Below, one piece after another: positions 30,950 through 34,547 of a stretch of DNA of 34,547 nt. The notes under the pieces were generated by a model. The model was not told the origin of the DNA, did not search any database, and saw only the letters and a program-made list of their open reading frames with translations. Every line of letters begins with the position of its first letter. The stretch's first letter is position 1. Location: positions 1 through 34,547 of the IMG/VR virus record IMGVR_UViG_3300034198_018502. One strand, written 5' to 3'. This DNA is from a virus. Both the position numbers and the translations under genes were made by a program.

Positions 30950-31120
30950 TTACTTGTTTTCGGTAAGTACAACCTCATCCCCGTCCAGGGTAAAAGAAAC
31001 TTCGGTATCTTCATACCATGAAAGCTCGTTCGCCAGCCATTCTGGAATCACGATATAATATTCACCCGTAATTGGATCGACTTGTACGAGCTGAAAATTT
31101 TCCTCGGAATTTTTCTTCAT
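30950..31120 (-). CDS. AbrB/MazE-like small protein, 56 aa
   Basis: ATG 31120 gives a 56-aa protein. The core ITGEYYIVIPEWLANELSWY then EDTEVSFTLDGDEVVLTEN has the strand-helix-strand layout of the swapped-hairpin AbrB/SpoVT/MazE DNA-binding fold (compare the family pattern G-x-x-x-IP-x-x-L-x-x-GD-x-V-x-x-x-DG-x-x-V-L). Arginines typical of DNA contact are few and the protein is acidic, so DNA binding is uncertain. It ends five bases before the -35 of the glycosyltransferase promoter, hinting at local regulation or simple compaction. No toxin partner is visible. Confidence 0.72.
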   Translation of the reverse strand: MKKNSEENFQLVQVDPITGEYYIVIPEWLANELSWYEDTEVSFTLDGDEVVLTENK

Positions 31121-31264: not shown

Positions 31265-31513
31265 TAGGGCACTTTATTGAAAAATTCTTTTATAAGGCAT
31301 TTTTTTCTGGGAGAATTTTTTTGATTCGTCCCTGTGAGCACTCGGCGTACCTGGGAAATTTTTTTAGAGTGCCTTATAAACAAGTTAGGCTTGGGTAACA
31401 CTTTATAGCTTGGGGGTACCTTGGGTTTTTATAAACGACGCCCCCCAATCACGGACACTGCCAATAACGAACGCACAAGGCTAAGTATACACAACTGTCC
31501 CACACGAACGCAT
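31265..31513. other. Non-coding boundary stretch with inverted repeats and T tracts
   Basis: I see no supported gene between about 31265 and 31513. The stretch contains TTATAAGGCA (31290) and AGTGCCTTATAA (31368) as an inverted pair, two similar elements CTGGGAGAATTTTTTT (31308) and CTGGGAAATTTTTTT (31352), and the change from AT-rich to GC-rich DNA at about 31430. Confidence 0.5.
31368..31379 (-). repeat. Copy 2 (inverted) of TTATAAGGCACT repeat
   Basis: AGTGCCTTATAA on the plus strand is the exact reverse complement of 29638-29649. A shorter direct copy is at 31290-31299. Confidence 0.6.
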
Positions 31514-31539
31514 AAAAAAGGGAGGCATCTCTGCCTCCC
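31514..31539 (-). terminator. Intrinsic terminator at the left end of the GC-rich gene array
   Basis: Minus strand GGGAGGCA-GAGA-TGCCTCCC (perfect 8-bp stem, plus-strand 31520-31539) is followed by six T. It lies 13 bases past the stop of the 98-aa gene. Confidence 0.92.
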
Positions 31540-31551
31540 TCAGTGATACCC

Positions 31552-31848
31552 TCAAACGGGGGTGTTGATGTTCTGAGCCCAGTTCCTCAGGCGAGCATTG
31601 CTTGCCTTGCTGAACACCCGATCACTGAAGACACCGTAGACTAAGACGTGGCGTCCGCCTGCCTTGGCGGCAGCTTGAAGAGCACGGCGTCCAAGGGCAC
31701 GGCGGGTAGGGGTGGCACCCGTGGTAGCCAGGTTGAACAGAGCAGTGGCACGGTTCGGACCGATCACGGTGGGGTTGCCGATCACACGCTCTGCGAGCAT
31801 GGCGGGGGAGATGAAGCGGATGGCGGTGGACTTCATGAAGTTGAGCAT
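31552..31848 (-). CDS. Basic hypothetical protein, 98 aa
   Basis: Begins MLNFMKSTAIRFISPAMLAE and contains an Ala/Arg-rich middle (TPTRRALGRRALQAAAKAGG) then HVLVYGVFSDRVFSKASNAR. The net charge is strongly positive, which would suit nucleic-acid binding; no domain recognised. ATG 31848 ends the leader CATTCAACACC, the same A/C-rich context seen before the other genes of this array, with no Shine-Dalgarno. It has its own promoter (TTGCCA/TATAAT) and its own terminator. An alternative overlapping frame of 97 aa is His/Pro-rich and not credible. Confidence 0.78.
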   Translation of the reverse strand: MLNFMKSTAIRFISPAMLAERVIGNPTVIGPNRATALFNLATTGATPTRRALGRRALQAAAKAGGRHVLVYGVFSDRVFSKASNARLRNWAQNINTPV

Positions 31849-31886
31849 GGTGTTGAATGCGGTGCGGGGCTGTCCCGCTTGAATGA

Positions 31887-31915
31887 ATTATAGACGGTGG
31901 GGGGCTGGTTGGCAA
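31887..31915 (-). promoter_or_regulatory. Sigma-70-type promoter of the 98-aa gene
   Basis: Minus strand TTGCCA (31910-31915), 17-base spacer, TATAAT (31887-31892). The -10 is perfect. The -35 lies within the loop of a G6/C6 hairpin that follows the upstream gene. Confidence 0.82.
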
Positions 31916-31921
31916 CCCCCC
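31899..31921 (-). terminator. Cassette A hairpin (G6/C6), overlapping a promoter
   Basis: Minus strand GGGGGG-loop-CCCCCC with loop TTGCCAACCAG. It follows the 51-aa gene stop by TCTCACC and has no T tract, so true termination is uncertain. It encloses the -35 of the next promoter. Confidence 0.55.
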
Positions 31922-31928
31922 GGTGAGA

Positions 31929-32084
31929 TCAGTTTTCAGTGTACCCGTCGAACCACTCCCCAGCCTTGCGGGTTTTGGGGTTGCGGCAGTGTGCCTGAGC
32001 TTCCTCCAGAGTCCGGACAGTTTTGATGATCTTGTCTGCCTTGTCCAGGTGGGGAGCGTAGGAGCGGATGATGGTGTAGGACAT
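31929..32084 (-). CDS. Small conserved phage protein, 51 aa
   Basis: ATG 32084 gives MSYTIIRSYAPHLDKADKII, then KTVRTLEEAQAHCRNPKTRK and the end AGEWFDGYTEN. The pattern TLEEAQAHC-x-P-x-T...WFDGY is familiar from many tailed-phage small proteins of unknown function. A longer reading to ATG 32156 is rejected because it would translate the promoter and leader between the genes. The leader AAGCAACCAAGCAACC has no Shine-Dalgarno. Probably early-expressed from its own promoter. Confidence 0.85.
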   Translation of the reverse strand: MSYTIIRSYAPHLDKADKIIKTVRTLEEAQAHCRNPKTRKAGEWFDGYTEN

Positions 32085-32110
32085 CGGATCGGTTGCTTGG
32101 TTGCTTGTGA

Positions 32111-32119
32111 ATTGTAGCA
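32111..32119 (-). promoter_or_regulatory. Cassette B extended -10 promoter
   Basis: Minus strand TGCTACAAT followed by TCACAAGCAACC. TGC before TACAAT is the extended -10 signature; no good -35 is visible because that position falls in the hairpin. Drives the 51-aa gene at 32084. Confidence 0.75.
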
Positions 32120-32125
32120 CGGAAT

Positions 32126-32145
32126 GGGGGGCGGTGATGCCCCCC
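32126..32145 (-). terminator. Cassette B hairpin
   Basis: Minus strand GGGGGGC-ATCACC-GCCCCCC, 7-bp GC stem, after the 52-aa gene stop (TGATTCCACCGGGGGG). Only ATT follows the stem. It abuts the extended -10 promoter. Confidence 0.6.
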
Positions 32146-32152
32146 GGTGGAA

Positions 32153-32311
32153 TCACCAGATCAGCGGGGTGCCGTCGGTGTCGTAGATCTCAGCTGGCAG
32201 ATCCTCCCAGAGGTCGGATTCCATGGAGGACCAGATCTCCTCTGTGAGATCCATCATGCTGAACTCCTCCAGTTCTTCAATCTGGGGGCAGTCGGTGAAG
32301 GCGTAGGACAT
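32153..32311 (-). CDS. Acidic hypothetical protein, 52 aa
   Basis: ATG 32311 gives MSYAFTDCPQIEELEEFSMM, DLTEEIWSSMESDLWEDLPA and the end EIYDTDGTPLIW. It is extremely acidic (pI well below 5 by composition) and probably helical; small acidic phage proteins often act as inhibitors of host DNA- or RNA-binding proteins, which is only a possibility here. It shares the MSY start with its neighbour. Its leader contains a G6/C6 hairpin near the 5' end of the transcript, unlike other genes in the array. Confidence 0.75.
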   Translation of the reverse strand: MSYAFTDCPQIEELEEFSMMDLTEEIWSSMESDLWEDLPAEIYDTDGTPLIW

Positions 32312-32329
32312 GATCGGTTGGTTGGTGAT

Positions 32330-32348
32330 GGGGGGATCTCCTCCCCCC
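32330..32348 (-). other. Hairpin in the 5' leader of the 52-aa acidic gene
   Basis: Minus strand GGGGGGA-GGAGA-TCCCCCC, a 7-bp stem. Because the promoter (32357-32384) is upstream of it, this hairpin would be at the very start of the mRNA rather than after a gene. Its loop contains GGAGA. Confidence 0.6.
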
Positions 32349-32356
32349 GTGATCGT

Positions 32357-32384
32357 ATTGTAGCAGATCGGTGGGAGGCGTCAA
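32357..32384 (-). promoter_or_regulatory. Promoter of the 52-aa acidic gene
   Basis: Minus strand TTGACG (32379-32384), 16-base spacer ending in TGC, then TACAAT (32357-32362). Has both a five-of-six -35 and the extended -10. The -35 contains the stop codon TGA of the upstream gene. Confidence 0.8.
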
Positions 32385-32611
32385 CCCCACTGATTGGATC
32401 GCCACCCGGAGATGGGGCATCGGGCGGATCCATCGGAGTGCAGATCAGCCAGCTCTACGGCTGAGAGTCCATCCACCCCAGAACGGCGGAGCGATTCGCC
32501 CACGTTGTCGCCACGGTGGGAGTTGAGCTGGGGGCGATCCTTCACCACGTTGGTGGAGATCCACACGGTTTGGCGTGTGGTGAGATCGGTTGCTTGGCTG
32601 TAGAGTGCCAT
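32381..32611 (-). CDS. Hypothetical protein, 76 aa
   Basis: ATG 32611 gives MALYSQATDLTTRQTVWIST, then NVVKDRPQLNSHRGDNVGES and LRRSGVDGLSAVELADLHSD, ending ISGWRSNQWG. Mixed charge, no membrane segment, no fold recognised. A longer reading to 32644 would include the promoter and is rejected. The leader CCAGTAACCAACCAAGCATC lacks a Shine-Dalgarno. It reads right into the promoter of the next gene. Confidence 0.72.
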   Translation of the reverse strand: MALYSQATDLTTRQTVWISTNVVKDRPQLNSHRGDNVGESLRRSGVDGLSAVELADLHSDGSARCPISGWRSNQWG

Positions 32612-32634
32612 GATGCTTGGTTGGTTACTGGTGA

Positions 32635-32643
32635 ATTGTAGCA
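32635..32643 (-). promoter_or_regulatory. Cassette D extended -10 promoter
   Basis: Minus strand TGCTACAAT followed by TCACCAGTAACC, 24 bases before ATG 32611. Its spacer region is the T tract and stem of the upstream terminator. Confidence 0.77.
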
Positions 32644-32670
32644 CGAAAAAGGGGGGCGATGGTGCCCCCC
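32644..32670 (-). terminator. Cassette D intrinsic terminator
   Basis: Minus strand GGGGGGC-ACCATC-GCCCCCC then TTTTT, the clearest full terminator of the repeated cassette, following the stop element TGATCTCACC of the 62-aa gene and joined to the next promoter. Confidence 0.85.
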
Positions 32671-32677
32671 GGTGAGA

Positions 32678-32866
32678 TCATCGCTTGGCTTTGATCTGAA
32701 GCTGGATCTCCCGGAGATCTTCGATCATCAGGCGGGCACCTTCAACGCTCATGGCTGGACGCTTGCCTGCCAGTGCCTCCTCAATGCGATCATCCCAGAG
32801 CATCAGGGAATCCATGATCGCCTGTTGGAGGGCGGTCTCTTGGTAGCCAGTGAGGGTGATGTTCAT
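32678..32866 (-). CDS. Hypothetical helical protein, 62 aa
   Basis: ATG 32866 gives MNITLTGYQETALQQAIMDS, LMLWDDRIEEALAGKRPAMS and VEGARLMIEDLREIQLQIKA, ending KR. It looks all-helical with two amphipathic helices, consistent with a small helical-bundle or dimer. No family recognised with certainty. Leader AAGTCAACCACACCGG, no Shine-Dalgarno except a weak GGAA. Confidence 0.78.
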   Translation of the reverse strand: MNITLTGYQETALQQAIMDSLMLWDDRIEEALAGKRPAMSVEGARLMIEDLREIQLQIKAKR

Positions 32867-32891
32867 CGGTTCCGGTGTGGTTGACTTGTGA

Positions 32892-32900
32892 ATTGTAGCA
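32892..32900 (-). promoter_or_regulatory. Cassette E extended -10 promoter
   Basis: Minus strand TGCTACAAT followed by TCACAAGTCAACC, 26 bases before ATG 32866. The accompanying hairpin is short (GGGC-ACTGA-GCCC) and includes the stop codon of the upstream gene. Confidence 0.75.
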
Positions 32901-32911
32901 CGGATGGGGGC

Positions 32912-33073
32912 TCAGTGCCCGTTGGTGTATTCTCCGATGATCATCCCATTCTGGCGGACTTGAGCGTAGCCAAACTCCTCTGAGAGATCCAGGCACAGAT
33001 GCCAGGCACGATCCTCATCGGTTGTGGTGTTCTCCCAGGGAGCAGCGGGGCAGATCACGTCGTAGCGTTGCAT
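32912..33073 (-). CDS. Hypothetical protein, 53 aa
   Basis: ATG 33073 gives MQRYDVICPAAPWENTTTDE, DRAWHLCLDLSEEFGYAQVR and the end QNGMIIGEYTNGH. It appears to be a small alpha/beta protein; no domain recognised. The leader AAGCAACCAAGCAACC is identical over 16 bases to that of the 51-aa gene at 32084. The stop TGA is embedded in a short hairpin before the next promoter. Confidence 0.78.
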   Translation of the reverse strand: MQRYDVICPAAPWENTTTDEDRAWHLCLDLSEEFGYAQVRQNGMIIGEYTNGH

Positions 33074-33098
33074 GGTGCGGTTGCTTGGTTGCTTGGAT

Positions 33099-33107
33099 AC
33101 TGTAGCA
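33099..33107 (-). promoter_or_regulatory. Cassette F extended -10 promoter
   Basis: Minus strand TGCTACAGT followed by ATCCAAGCAACC. TACAGT is a one-base variant of the TACAAT found in the other cassettes. Confidence 0.68.
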
Positions 33108-33108
33108 C

Positions 33109-33135
33109 AAAAAAGGGGGGCTGTGGTGCCCCCCC
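33109..33135 (-). terminator. Cassette F intrinsic terminator
   Basis: Minus strand GGGGGGC-ACCACA-GCCCCCC followed by TTTTTT, directly joined to the extended -10 promoter downstream. Confidence 0.85.
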
Positions 33136-33143
33136 CGTTAAGT

Positions 33144-33470
33144 TTAAGCTAACCGCATCCCAGAGAAGAATGGGATTGTGGAGAATTCTTCGCCCCACTT
33201 AGAACGAAGGAACCACTGATAGGACTTCTGGAATATACCTTCACCAGGGATTCCATGAACCTGAAGAATAGCGTTGAGGCGGGATTTGGTGGTAACAGTT
33301 TGCCATCCCCCATCATAGAGGCGGACAAAACCTTCACCAACCTCAGCAATCTTGTTACCGTGGAGGTATACAAAACTCACACCATTGGAGAAGTTAACTT
33401 CGGTGTTGTCTTGCTTCCAGTCACGCTTGGCGATGATGGCAGCGTTCATCCGTTGTTCGATCTTACGCAT
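33144..33470 (-). CDS. Conserved phage protein of unknown function, 108 aa
   Basis: ATG 33470 gives MRKIEQRMNAAIIAKRDWKQ, then DNTEVNFSNGVSFVYLHGNK, IAEVGEGFVRLYDGGWQTVT and TKSRLNAILQVHGIPGEGIF, ending FFSGMRLA. The blocks YLHGNKIAE and VRLYDGGWQTVTTKSRLNA are a pattern I recall from many cyanophage and other phage genomes, always without assigned function. It is basic and beta-rich in the middle, helical at both ends. The longer frame to 33542 is rejected because it reads through the promoter cassette. It is the largest protein of the array. Confidence 0.86.
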   Translation of the reverse strand: MRKIEQRMNAAIIAKRDWKQDNTEVNFSNGVSFVYLHGNKIAEVGEGFVRLYDGGWQTVTTKSRLNAILQVHGIPGEGIFQKSYQWFLRSKWGEEFSTIPFFSGMRLA

Positions 33471-33498
33471 GGTCGGGTGTCGTGTGGTTGACTTGTTC

Positions 33499-33504
33499 AG
33501 TGTA
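33499..33504 (-). promoter_or_regulatory. Cassette G -10 element
   Basis: Minus strand TACACT followed by GAACAAGTCAACC. Lacks the TG extension, so weaker than its siblings, but the position and leader are conserved. Confidence 0.5.
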
Positions 33505-33511
33505 AGGGGTG

Positions 33512-33533
33512 AAAGGGGGGCTGTGTGCCCCCC
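33512..33533 (-). terminator. Cassette G hairpin
   Basis: Minus strand GGGGGGC-ACACA-GCCCCCC followed by TTT, after the 61-aa gene stop. The short T tract makes termination less certain than in cassettes D and F. Confidence 0.65.
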
Positions 33534-33542
33534 GTGTGCCAC

Positions 33543-33728
33543 CTAGGCGACTGGCACAAGCTCAACGCTGGTGCTGGTGTCGATGGCGAGCAGAGCAGAA
33601 TCCAGGACATCCAGGCGATCCCAGATGTCAGGGTAGAGTTCGGGATACTTGGTGCTCAGTTGCAGGATCTCACCCCTCCAACTTACCAGAGCCAGGCGAA
33701 GCGTTGGGGTGGGGATTGTGGCAGGCAT
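33543..33728 (-). CDS. Hypothetical protein, 61 aa
   Basis: ATG 33728 gives MPATIPTPTLRLALVSWRGE, ILQLSTKYPELYPDIWDRLD and VLDSALLAIDTSTSVELVPV, ending A. Mostly helical with hydrophobic helix faces; not membrane-spanning. No family recognised. The promoter upstream has a TTGCCA -35 and extended -10. Leader AAGTCAACCGCACCGATCCG, no Shine-Dalgarno. The longer reading to 33782 would translate the promoter. Confidence 0.74.
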   Translation of the reverse strand: MPATIPTPTLRLALVSWRGEILQLSTKYPELYPDIWDRLDVLDSALLAIDTSTSVELVPVA

Positions 33729-33752
33729 CGGATCGGTGCGGTTGACTTGTGA

Positions 33753-33782
33753 ATTGTAGCAGCTCAACGGGGCATCTGGCAA
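33753..33782 (-). promoter_or_regulatory. Cassette H promoter
   Basis: Minus strand TTGCCA (33777-33782), 18-base spacer ending TGC, then TACAAT (33753-33758) and TCACAAGTCAACC. No G6/C6 hairpin here; instead the promoter overlaps the 3' end of the secreted-peptide gene. Confidence 0.75.
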
Positions 33783-33898
33783 GCAGCAGGAGCAACCCGG
33801 TTGAGAGCGTTACAGTCTGAAATGTTTTGATTGTGGGCGGCATCAGCAAGGCGGATCGCCCCCCAGCCCAGCAGCAGAATCAGGAGAAAGCGTTTCAT
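33764..33898 (-). CDS. Predicted secreted/periplasmic peptide, 44 aa
   Basis: ATG 33898 gives MKRFLLILLLGWGAIRLADA, a classic signal peptide (KR, Leu-rich core, ADA cleavage site), then about 24 mature residues: AHNQNISDCNALNRVAPAAC and QMPR. The two cysteines could form a disulfide in the periplasm. It starts only three bases after the T-rich tail of the terminator of the upstream KTSC-like gene (TTTTTACCATG), so its own promoter is not evident and it may depend on read-through. Role unknown; a host-envelope target is possible. Confidence 0.65.
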   Translation of the reverse strand: MKRFLLILLLGWGAIRLADAAHNQNISDCNALNRVAPAACQMPR

Positions 33899-33899
33899 G

Positions 33900-33928
33900 G
33901 TAAAAAGAAAGGGGAGCCGAAGCTCCCC
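33900..33928 (-). terminator. Intrinsic terminator of the KTSC-like gene
   Basis: Minus strand GGGGAGC-TTCG-GCTCCCC with a stable TTCG (UUCG) tetraloop, then TTTCTTTTT. Confidence 0.92.
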
Positions 33929-33935
33929 CATCCTA

Positions 33936-34154
33936 TCAGGCGGCGACGTTCAGAAGCTGATCGTTGCGGATGGCTTTGTTGATAAAGCCGCCCACCGACT
34001 GCTGAGTTGCAATCACTTCGTTAAGTTGGCTAACGAAAGTTTCAGGAGCAGCAGCCCGGTAGGTATAGTCACGTCCACCGTTGAAGGTAACAGTGACTTG
34101 ATCGCCGTTCATATCAGAGATAGATTCAACAGCGGAAGAGGTGAATTTGAACAT
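33936..34154 (-). CDS. KTSC-domain-like protein, 72 aa
   Basis: ATG 34154 gives MFKFTSSAVESISDMNGDQV, TVTFNGGRDYTYRAAAPETF, VSQLNEVIATQQSVGGFINK, ending AIRNDQLLNVAA. The strands SSAVESISD, QVTVTFNGGRDYTYRA, followed by a helix and SVGGFINKAIR match the KTSC domain pattern (SS-x-I-x-x-I-x-YD...L-x-V-x-F-x-x-G-x-x-Y-x-Y...G-x-x-x-N-x-x-IR), a small fold often found alone or fused to lysyl-tRNA synthetase-like proteins; possible nucleic-acid binding. It has a clear promoter 70 bases upstream and a UUCG terminator. Confidence 0.82.
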   Translation of the reverse strand: MFKFTSSAVESISDMNGDQVTVTFNGGRDYTYRAAAPETFVSQLNEVIATQQSVGGFINKAIRNDQLLNVAA

Positions 34155-34225
34155 GATGTAGTTTAAGGGATAGTGGGTTAGTGAAGTTTTTTGAGCGGGA
34201 TGCTTCACCCCCGCTTGATGTAATC

Positions 34226-34254
34226 AATATAGCCCGGATTGGGCGGGTTGTCTA
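34226..34254 (-). promoter_or_regulatory. Sigma-70-type promoter of the KTSC-like gene
   Basis: Minus strand TAGACA (34249-34254), 17-base spacer, TATATT (34226-34231), both five of six. The -35 begins directly after the TGA of the upstream 39-aa gene. The long leader holds a short hairpin (AGCGGG/CCCGCT). Confidence 0.78.
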
Positions 34255-34374
34255 TCAGGCTTGTGCCAGTTCTTCAACTGGTTGGAGATCTTGGATGATG
34301 CTATCCAGGATGGCAAGGATCTCATCACCCGTGCTGGCTTTGTTGAGCAGGGCGGTAGCAAGTTCAAGTGTCAT
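34255..34374 (-). CDS. Small helical protein, 39 aa
   Basis: ATG 34374 gives MTLELATALLNKASTGDEIL and AILDSIIQDLQPVEELAQA. Two amphipathic helices joined at STGDEI, of a kind I recall from cyanophages and cyanobacteria without known function. The leader contains AAGTCAACC followed by AAACAAACACC. Too short to assign function. Confidence 0.75.
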   Translation of the reverse strand: MTLELATALLNKASTGDEILAILDSIIQDLQPVEELAQA

Positions 34375-34398
34375 GGTGTTTGTTTGGTTGACTTGGGT

Positions 34399-34427
34399 AG
34401 TTTGAATGAAGCGGGGAGAATTGTCTA
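34399..34427 (-). promoter_or_regulatory. Possible promoter of the 39-aa gene
   Basis: Minus strand TAGACA (34422-34427), 17-base spacer, CAAACT (34399-34404). The -10 is poor (three of six) but the position relative to the conserved AAGTCAACC leader agrees with other array promoters. Confidence 0.4.
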
Positions 34428-34453
34428 GGGAGTGTGTGCCACTTCCCCAGCTG

Positions 34454-34547
34454 TCACACGTCCAGGCAGTGCCGATAGGTTTGTTGTAACCTGATCAGCA
34501 CATCATCCCAGAACTCTTTATCATCATCGTCGTTGTATTGGTTGTTA
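34454..34547 (-). CDS. Acidic hypothetical protein, 5' end cut by window edge
   Basis: The minus-strand frame enters from the right edge and ends at TGA 34454. The visible 30 residues read NNQYNDDDDKEFWDDVLIRL then QQTYRHCLDV. Acidic then helical. Same GC-rich base composition and orientation as its neighbours. Function unknown. Confidence 0.65.
   Translation of the reverse strand, partial: NNQYNDDDDKEFWDDVLIRLQQTYRHCLDV

Follow-up and report, generated by a model that had tools for sequence, protein, structure and literature searches.

Repeated promoter and stem-loop cassettes between small genes of an uncultured T4-like cyanophage as probable sites of gene exchange

Location and gene content of the array

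The window, i.e., the whole stretch of 34,547 bases that was analysed, is the IMG/VR virus record IMGVR_UViG_3300034198_018502 of an uncultured T4-like cyanobacterial virus; it matches the neck genes gp13/gp14 of P-SSM2 and other Kyanoviridae. The GC content is about 30% over 1-30 kb and climbs to 45-63% at 31.5-34.5 kb, where an array of small genes lies on the minus strand. These genes, designated below by their higher coordinate, include the following:

31552..31848, minus strand: ORF of 98 aa, the last gene of the array
31929..32084, minus strand: ORF of 51 aa, 89 relatives in IMG/VR
32153..32311, minus strand: ORF of 52 aa, replaced by another gene in sister L127
32381..32611, minus strand: ORF of 76 aa, relatives in other arrays, no match in the phage record collection
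32678..32866, minus strand: ORF of 62 aa, phrog_35291, absent in sister L019
32912..33073, minus strand: ORF of 53 aa, array member with 124 relatives in IMG/VR, one (85%) in phage S-CREM1
33144..33470, minus strand: ORF of 108 aa, Kyano_Gp96 (PF23790), E 1.6e-43
33543..33728, minus strand: ORF of 61 aa, before or after gene 33073 depending on the sister

Matches of the array proteins are limited to families of unknown function. A host origin was considered for gene 33073, which gave no match in 292 cyanobacterial genomes, although such an empty answer is weak evidence. Directly after the array, at 30950-31120, there is a MazE/AbrB-like gene of 56 aa with a 64% identical homologue in S-SRM01. 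This gene keeps its place after the array in most sisters and, therefore, the array site is fixed, with variable content. In the closest sister (L127, 2155-2560), about 1 kb of extra AT-rich sequence with two small ORFs, possibly endonuclease-like, separates the array terminator from the MazE-like gene.

A 48,422-base IMG/VR contig (L013/L205) is identical to the window over the 5,319 bases compared and runs 13 kb beyond the window end. The genes upstream of the array in this contig are tightly packed, mostly overlapping or separated by few bases, in contrast to the gaps of 35-100 bases between the genes of the GC-rich array; one of the upstream ORFs (283 aa, L205 6130-6981) has a TSPPY motif and is probably a DNA methyltransferase. 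The array forms a GC-rich island (to ~62%) in a genome of roughly 30-45% GC in the window (31400-34547) as well as in L206, L209, L210, L211, L212, L229 and L234. In the eight long contigs checked, cassettes are mostly confined to an island of 55-62% GC, followed by ~30-40% GC.

Cassettes in the gaps of the array

We define a complete unit as a stop codon, a G/C hairpin, TGCTACAA/GT and an A/C-rich leader that ends at the ATG. Three gaps of the array, those preceding genes 33073, 32611 and 32084, contain such a unit, and incomplete or modified versions precede genes 34374, 34154, 33728, 33470, 32866, 32311 and 31848. The following elements were delineated:

33899..33938, minus strand: stop and terminator-like hairpin 33929-33910 with T tract, no recognisable promoter
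33729..33766, minus strand: promoter and leader only, TTGCCA (33782) / TGCTACAAT 33761-33753, no hairpin
33471..33545, minus strand: weak cassette, hairpin, TACACT replacing TGCTACAAT, leader AACAAGTCAACCACAC
33074..33146, minus strand: full cassette, stop TAA, 9-bp hairpin 33136-33113 with T6 (-18.7 kcal/mol), TGCTACAGT 33107-33099, A/C leader
32867..32914, minus strand: short cassette, 4-bp hairpin 32920-32908 with a TGA stop in the loop, TGCTACAAT 32900-32892, leader
32612..32680, minus strand: full cassette, TGATCTCACCGGGGGG, hairpin with T5 (-17.4 kcal/mol), TGCTACAAT 32643-32635, leader
32312..32383, minus strand: reversed order, TTGACG/TGCTACAAT 32365-32357, then G6/C6 hairpin in the leader
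32085..32155, minus strand: full cassette lacking a T tract, with hairpin, TGCTACAAT 32119-32111 and leader
31849..31931, minus strand: divergent cassette, TGATCTCACCGGGGGG, 9-bp hairpin with -35 TTGCCA in its loop, -10 TCTATAAT (TATAAT 31892-31887), a different leader, no TGCTACAAT
31518..31541, minus strand: terminator with T6 after the last array gene (-18.9 kcal/mol, z -4.9)

A preliminary description of this DNA had proposed a single layout for at least four gaps, and this holds for the three complete units; the fourth gap, 31849-31931, has the hairpin but carries TCTATAAT instead of TGCTACAAT. The weaker versions that it placed before genes 32866, 33470 and 33728 are indeed partial units, the first with only a 4-bp stem that has TGA in its loop, the second with only TACACT, and the third without a hairpin. 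The repeats themselves are real; however, the array extends further than first described, to genes 34154 and 34374, and ends at the T6 terminator 31541-31518, and the cassette before gene 32311, in which the hairpin follows the promoter, had not been listed. Other details were accurate: the sequence around the stop codon is identical in two gaps (TGATCTCACCGGGGGG, minus strand 31916-31931 and 32665-32680) and nearly so in a third (TGATTCCACCGGGGGG, 32140-32155), and T5-T6 tracts occur in exactly two cassettes (32612 and 33074), where they lie within the spacer of the next promoter. Outside these two cassettes, T tracts accompany the hairpin 33929-33910 and the end terminator.

The minus strand of the window has five exact TGCTACAAT sites, and each of them is located in an array gap, just before a small ORF; the mean number in shuffles that preserved dinucleotides is 0.008. 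The same shuffles yielded 0.002 G6..C6 hairpins versus five observed, and no such hairpin is present in the other 31.4 kb of the window. Folding energies of the large hairpins are about -16 to -19 kcal/mol. A search against Rfam revealed no known RNA family at curated thresholds.

Cassettes in related viruses

The motif GGGGGGN4-10CCCCCCN2-12GCTACAAT matched 40 IMG/VR stretches. The set of relatives consists of 183 non-redundant loci, and because these were partly fetched by the hairpin-promoter motif, frequencies among them are not unbiased. Within this set, 92 loci contain 239 units in which a TGCTACAAT or TGCTACAGT promoter precedes, within 75 nt, an ORF of 30 aa or more. The distance from the -10 element to the ATG has a median of 25 nt (5-95%, 21-32), the leader is 73% A+C, a Shine-Dalgarno-like tetramer is found in its last 20 nt in only 20 of the 239 units, and there is little information at the -35 position.

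One possible, if doubtful, reading is that the cassettes are primarily transcription insulators that end one mini-transcript and start the next, recombination being a side effect. The stability of the window hairpins, their location just upstream of promoters and the T5-T6 tracts of two of them are consistent with this role, as is the presence of a stop codon between the G run and the C run in 60 cassettes compared to 2.9 in shuffles, several of these being the same gene in different phages. Conversely, one window hairpin is placed after its promoter, a strong upstream stem was detected in 100 of the 239 cassettes, ~58% being without one, and in only eight of these 100 do the 8 nt that follow the stem include four or more T. 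Thus, insulation is not the common denominator, whereas promoter plus leader is. The terminator before each promoter that had been proposed initially is only partly supported, in that termination is plausible at the two window cassettes with a T tract.

Dense cassettes are absent from the examined regions of S-CREM1, P-RSM1, S-WAM2, S-RSM4, DSL-LC02 and S-SRM01, which have mostly 35-50% GC per kb, and short-query searches did not find the array in 50,697 phage records. A host origin of the motif was rejected: TGCTACAATN2-8AAGTCAACC has 15 scattered matches in 257 Gb of prokaryote genomes, with none in Synechococcus, versus 41 viral stretches.

Evidence for gene exchange

The proposal that genes are swapped between gaps is supported by the sister phages, which show the opposite of a fixed gene order with unrelated gap sequences. 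Both gene order and content vary: gene 33728 precedes gene 33073 in the window and follows it in L041, and gene 34374 precedes gene 33470 in the window and follows it in other sisters. The sister L019 has gene 33073, a single cassette and gene 32611, to which the window adds one cassette and gene 32866. Cassettes are also common to unrelated genes; the one before gene 32084 in the window matches, without a difference over 43 nt, an L128 cassette that precedes an unrelated gene. The unusual 32311 cassette, in which the leader contains the hairpin, shows 90% identity over 83 nt to the cassette that L127 has in front of the homologue of gene 32084.

We compared the sequences across the -10 element between different genes of the same genome and between genomes. 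Exact identity over at least 40 nt was found in 10 of 317 within-genome pairs (3.2%) versus 11 of 26,748 between-genome pairs (0.04%), a difference of ~77-fold; the same gene in different genomes reached this length in 8 of 1,112 pairs. With a threshold of at least 28 nt, the fractions are 11% within and 0.9% between genomes. The within-genome leader similarity exceeds that in 200 of 200 permutations, and its mean is higher even than the mean for one gene compared across phages. Three cassette copies of L030 have the same hairpin, and two cassettes of L040 are identical over 69 nt. At ~5767 and ~6320 of L040 (array orientation), the genes of two different small proteins have the same cassette, and both proteins begin with the eight residues MTASTITP, so copying may extend into the coding sequence. 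This similarity within genomes is best explained by copying of cassettes. It should be noted that the cassettes of the window are not near-identical to each other and, therefore, no very recent event is seen there.

Gains and losses between sisters are often bounded by cassettes. Among 53 such events in sister pairs with flanks of at least 85% identity, the junction overlap is at least 15 nt in 29, of which 26 are promoter-like before an ATG, although some of the overlaps reflect over-extended BLAST alignments, in which the two copies have low identity. A stricter promoter-plus-leader pattern is found at 26 of the 53 junctions, whereas 10.0 would be expected at randomly drawn gene starts and 3.3 at randomly drawn positions. 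In the best case (L228/L247), the flanks are 97% identical, and the 169 extra nt are associated with a 46-nt exact repeat. Only 12 of the 29 short alleles bounded by repeats occur in at least two contigs.

Ordinary strong promoters under selection could produce part of this pattern, if the same early promoter and leader were kept or arose independently while genes turned over by any indel process, the cassettes not mediating exchange. The promoter and leader are, indeed, the conserved part, and selection that keeps genes intact favours breakpoints at their boundaries under any mechanism; random boundaries carry promoter and leader in 10 of 53 draws. However, the exact matches, up to 69 nt and concentrated within single genomes, extend through hairpin loops and spacers, which are dispensable for any promoter, the mosaic cassettes of L030 have a common upstream half and different leaders, and the same unusual cassette precedes unrelated genes in the window and L127. 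We consider this explanation unlikely. An assembly artefact, i.e., repeats collapsed or misjoined into a false gene order, is less credible still: all sister sequences are metagenome contigs, in which repeats of 25-70 nt can collapse, but the window and the 48-kb contig agree over the 5.3 kb compared, the 12 recurrent alleles come from distinct contigs, and gene order differs at a larger scale, too.

Proposed mechanism and comparison with known systems

Taken together, the data make it probable that this locus is a dense array of promoter/stem-loop cassettes in the hyperplastic region of a T4-like cyanophage, where recombination between near copies exchanges genes. Each cassette would supply the tiny gene that follows with a separate promoter of host type (an extended -10, TGCTACAAT, in most cases without a -35) and with a short A/C-rich leader without Shine-Dalgarno sequence. 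A GC hairpin often, but not always, precedes the promoter and may end or protect the upstream transcript. Homologous recombination between cassettes would then add, remove or exchange the intervening gene with expression unharmed, given that the cassettes of one phage are near copies and that T4-like phages are highly recombinogenic. From the sequences, we infer promoter activity, early timing, use by the host RNA polymerase, termination, and homologous recombination as the mechanism.

In the T4-type phages RB49/phi1, T4/PST and KVP40/nt-1, similar elements, the promoter-early stem-loops (PeSLs), have reportedly been described. Recombination between neighbouring PeSL copies reportedly can release small circles. 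In both systems, a stem-loop and a sigma-70-type promoter form a composite between small genes in the hyperplastic region of a T4-like phage, and related phages differ by the genes between copies. In the array, promoter and stem-loop are likewise combined in one short, repeated intergenic unit, and related phages appear to differ by exchange between copies. The stems of the array are stable by folding, with a T tract in few. Unlike PeSLs, the array belongs to a cyanophage, has an extended -10 mostly without -35 and a conserved A/C leader, and is restricted to a GC-rich island; its hairpin is optional, mostly without a T tract, and sometimes follows the promoter or has a stop codon in the loop. 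The array probably works like PeSLs, with the structural and evolutionary features present and early sigma-70 promoter function predicted; a PeSL-type mechanism, as in other T4-like phages, would then operate in cyanophages as well.

Large numbers of small genes without known function are typical of cyanomyoviruses, and the gain and loss of these genes are unexplained. A widespread, dense and genome-specific array would provide a concrete mechanism for this turnover, and the cassettes offer testable junctions as well as a sequence handle for finding early genes that are exchanged rapidly, which are candidates for host takeover and anti-defence. More tentatively, the promoter-leader-hairpin unit might be a phage-specific, self-homogenising landing site, such that any ORF that enters the genome takes on the cassette version of the resident phage, and a GC-rich island of exchangeable early genes is kept at a fixed place before the structural genes in uncultured cyanomyoviruses. 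Such a capture platform would resemble an integron without an integrase.

Small unknown genes that turn over also characterise the ORFanage region of the cyanomyovirus S-PM2. No more than one host-like early promoter and two stem-loops were identified there, and PeSL shuffling was considered unlikely (Puxty et al. 2015, PMC4503421); in contrast to these few elements, cassettes are dense in the window array. Repeated intergenic sequences of the halovirus HF2 were shown to carry promoters, a likeness to the array; HF2 is, however, an archaeal virus with TATA/BRE promoters, and the part of the account considered here describes neither a hairpin nor gene swapping between the HF2 repeats (PMC8707807).

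A different layout of TGCTACAAT was observed before a gene starting with MYDDYD, where copies of TCTCGTCGAGA / TCTCGACGAG lie on either side of the promoter. This layout, seen at L211 ~2543, L229 ~1785, L234 ~205, L243 ~4495 and L034 ~69 (array orientation), looks like an operator pair around the promoter.
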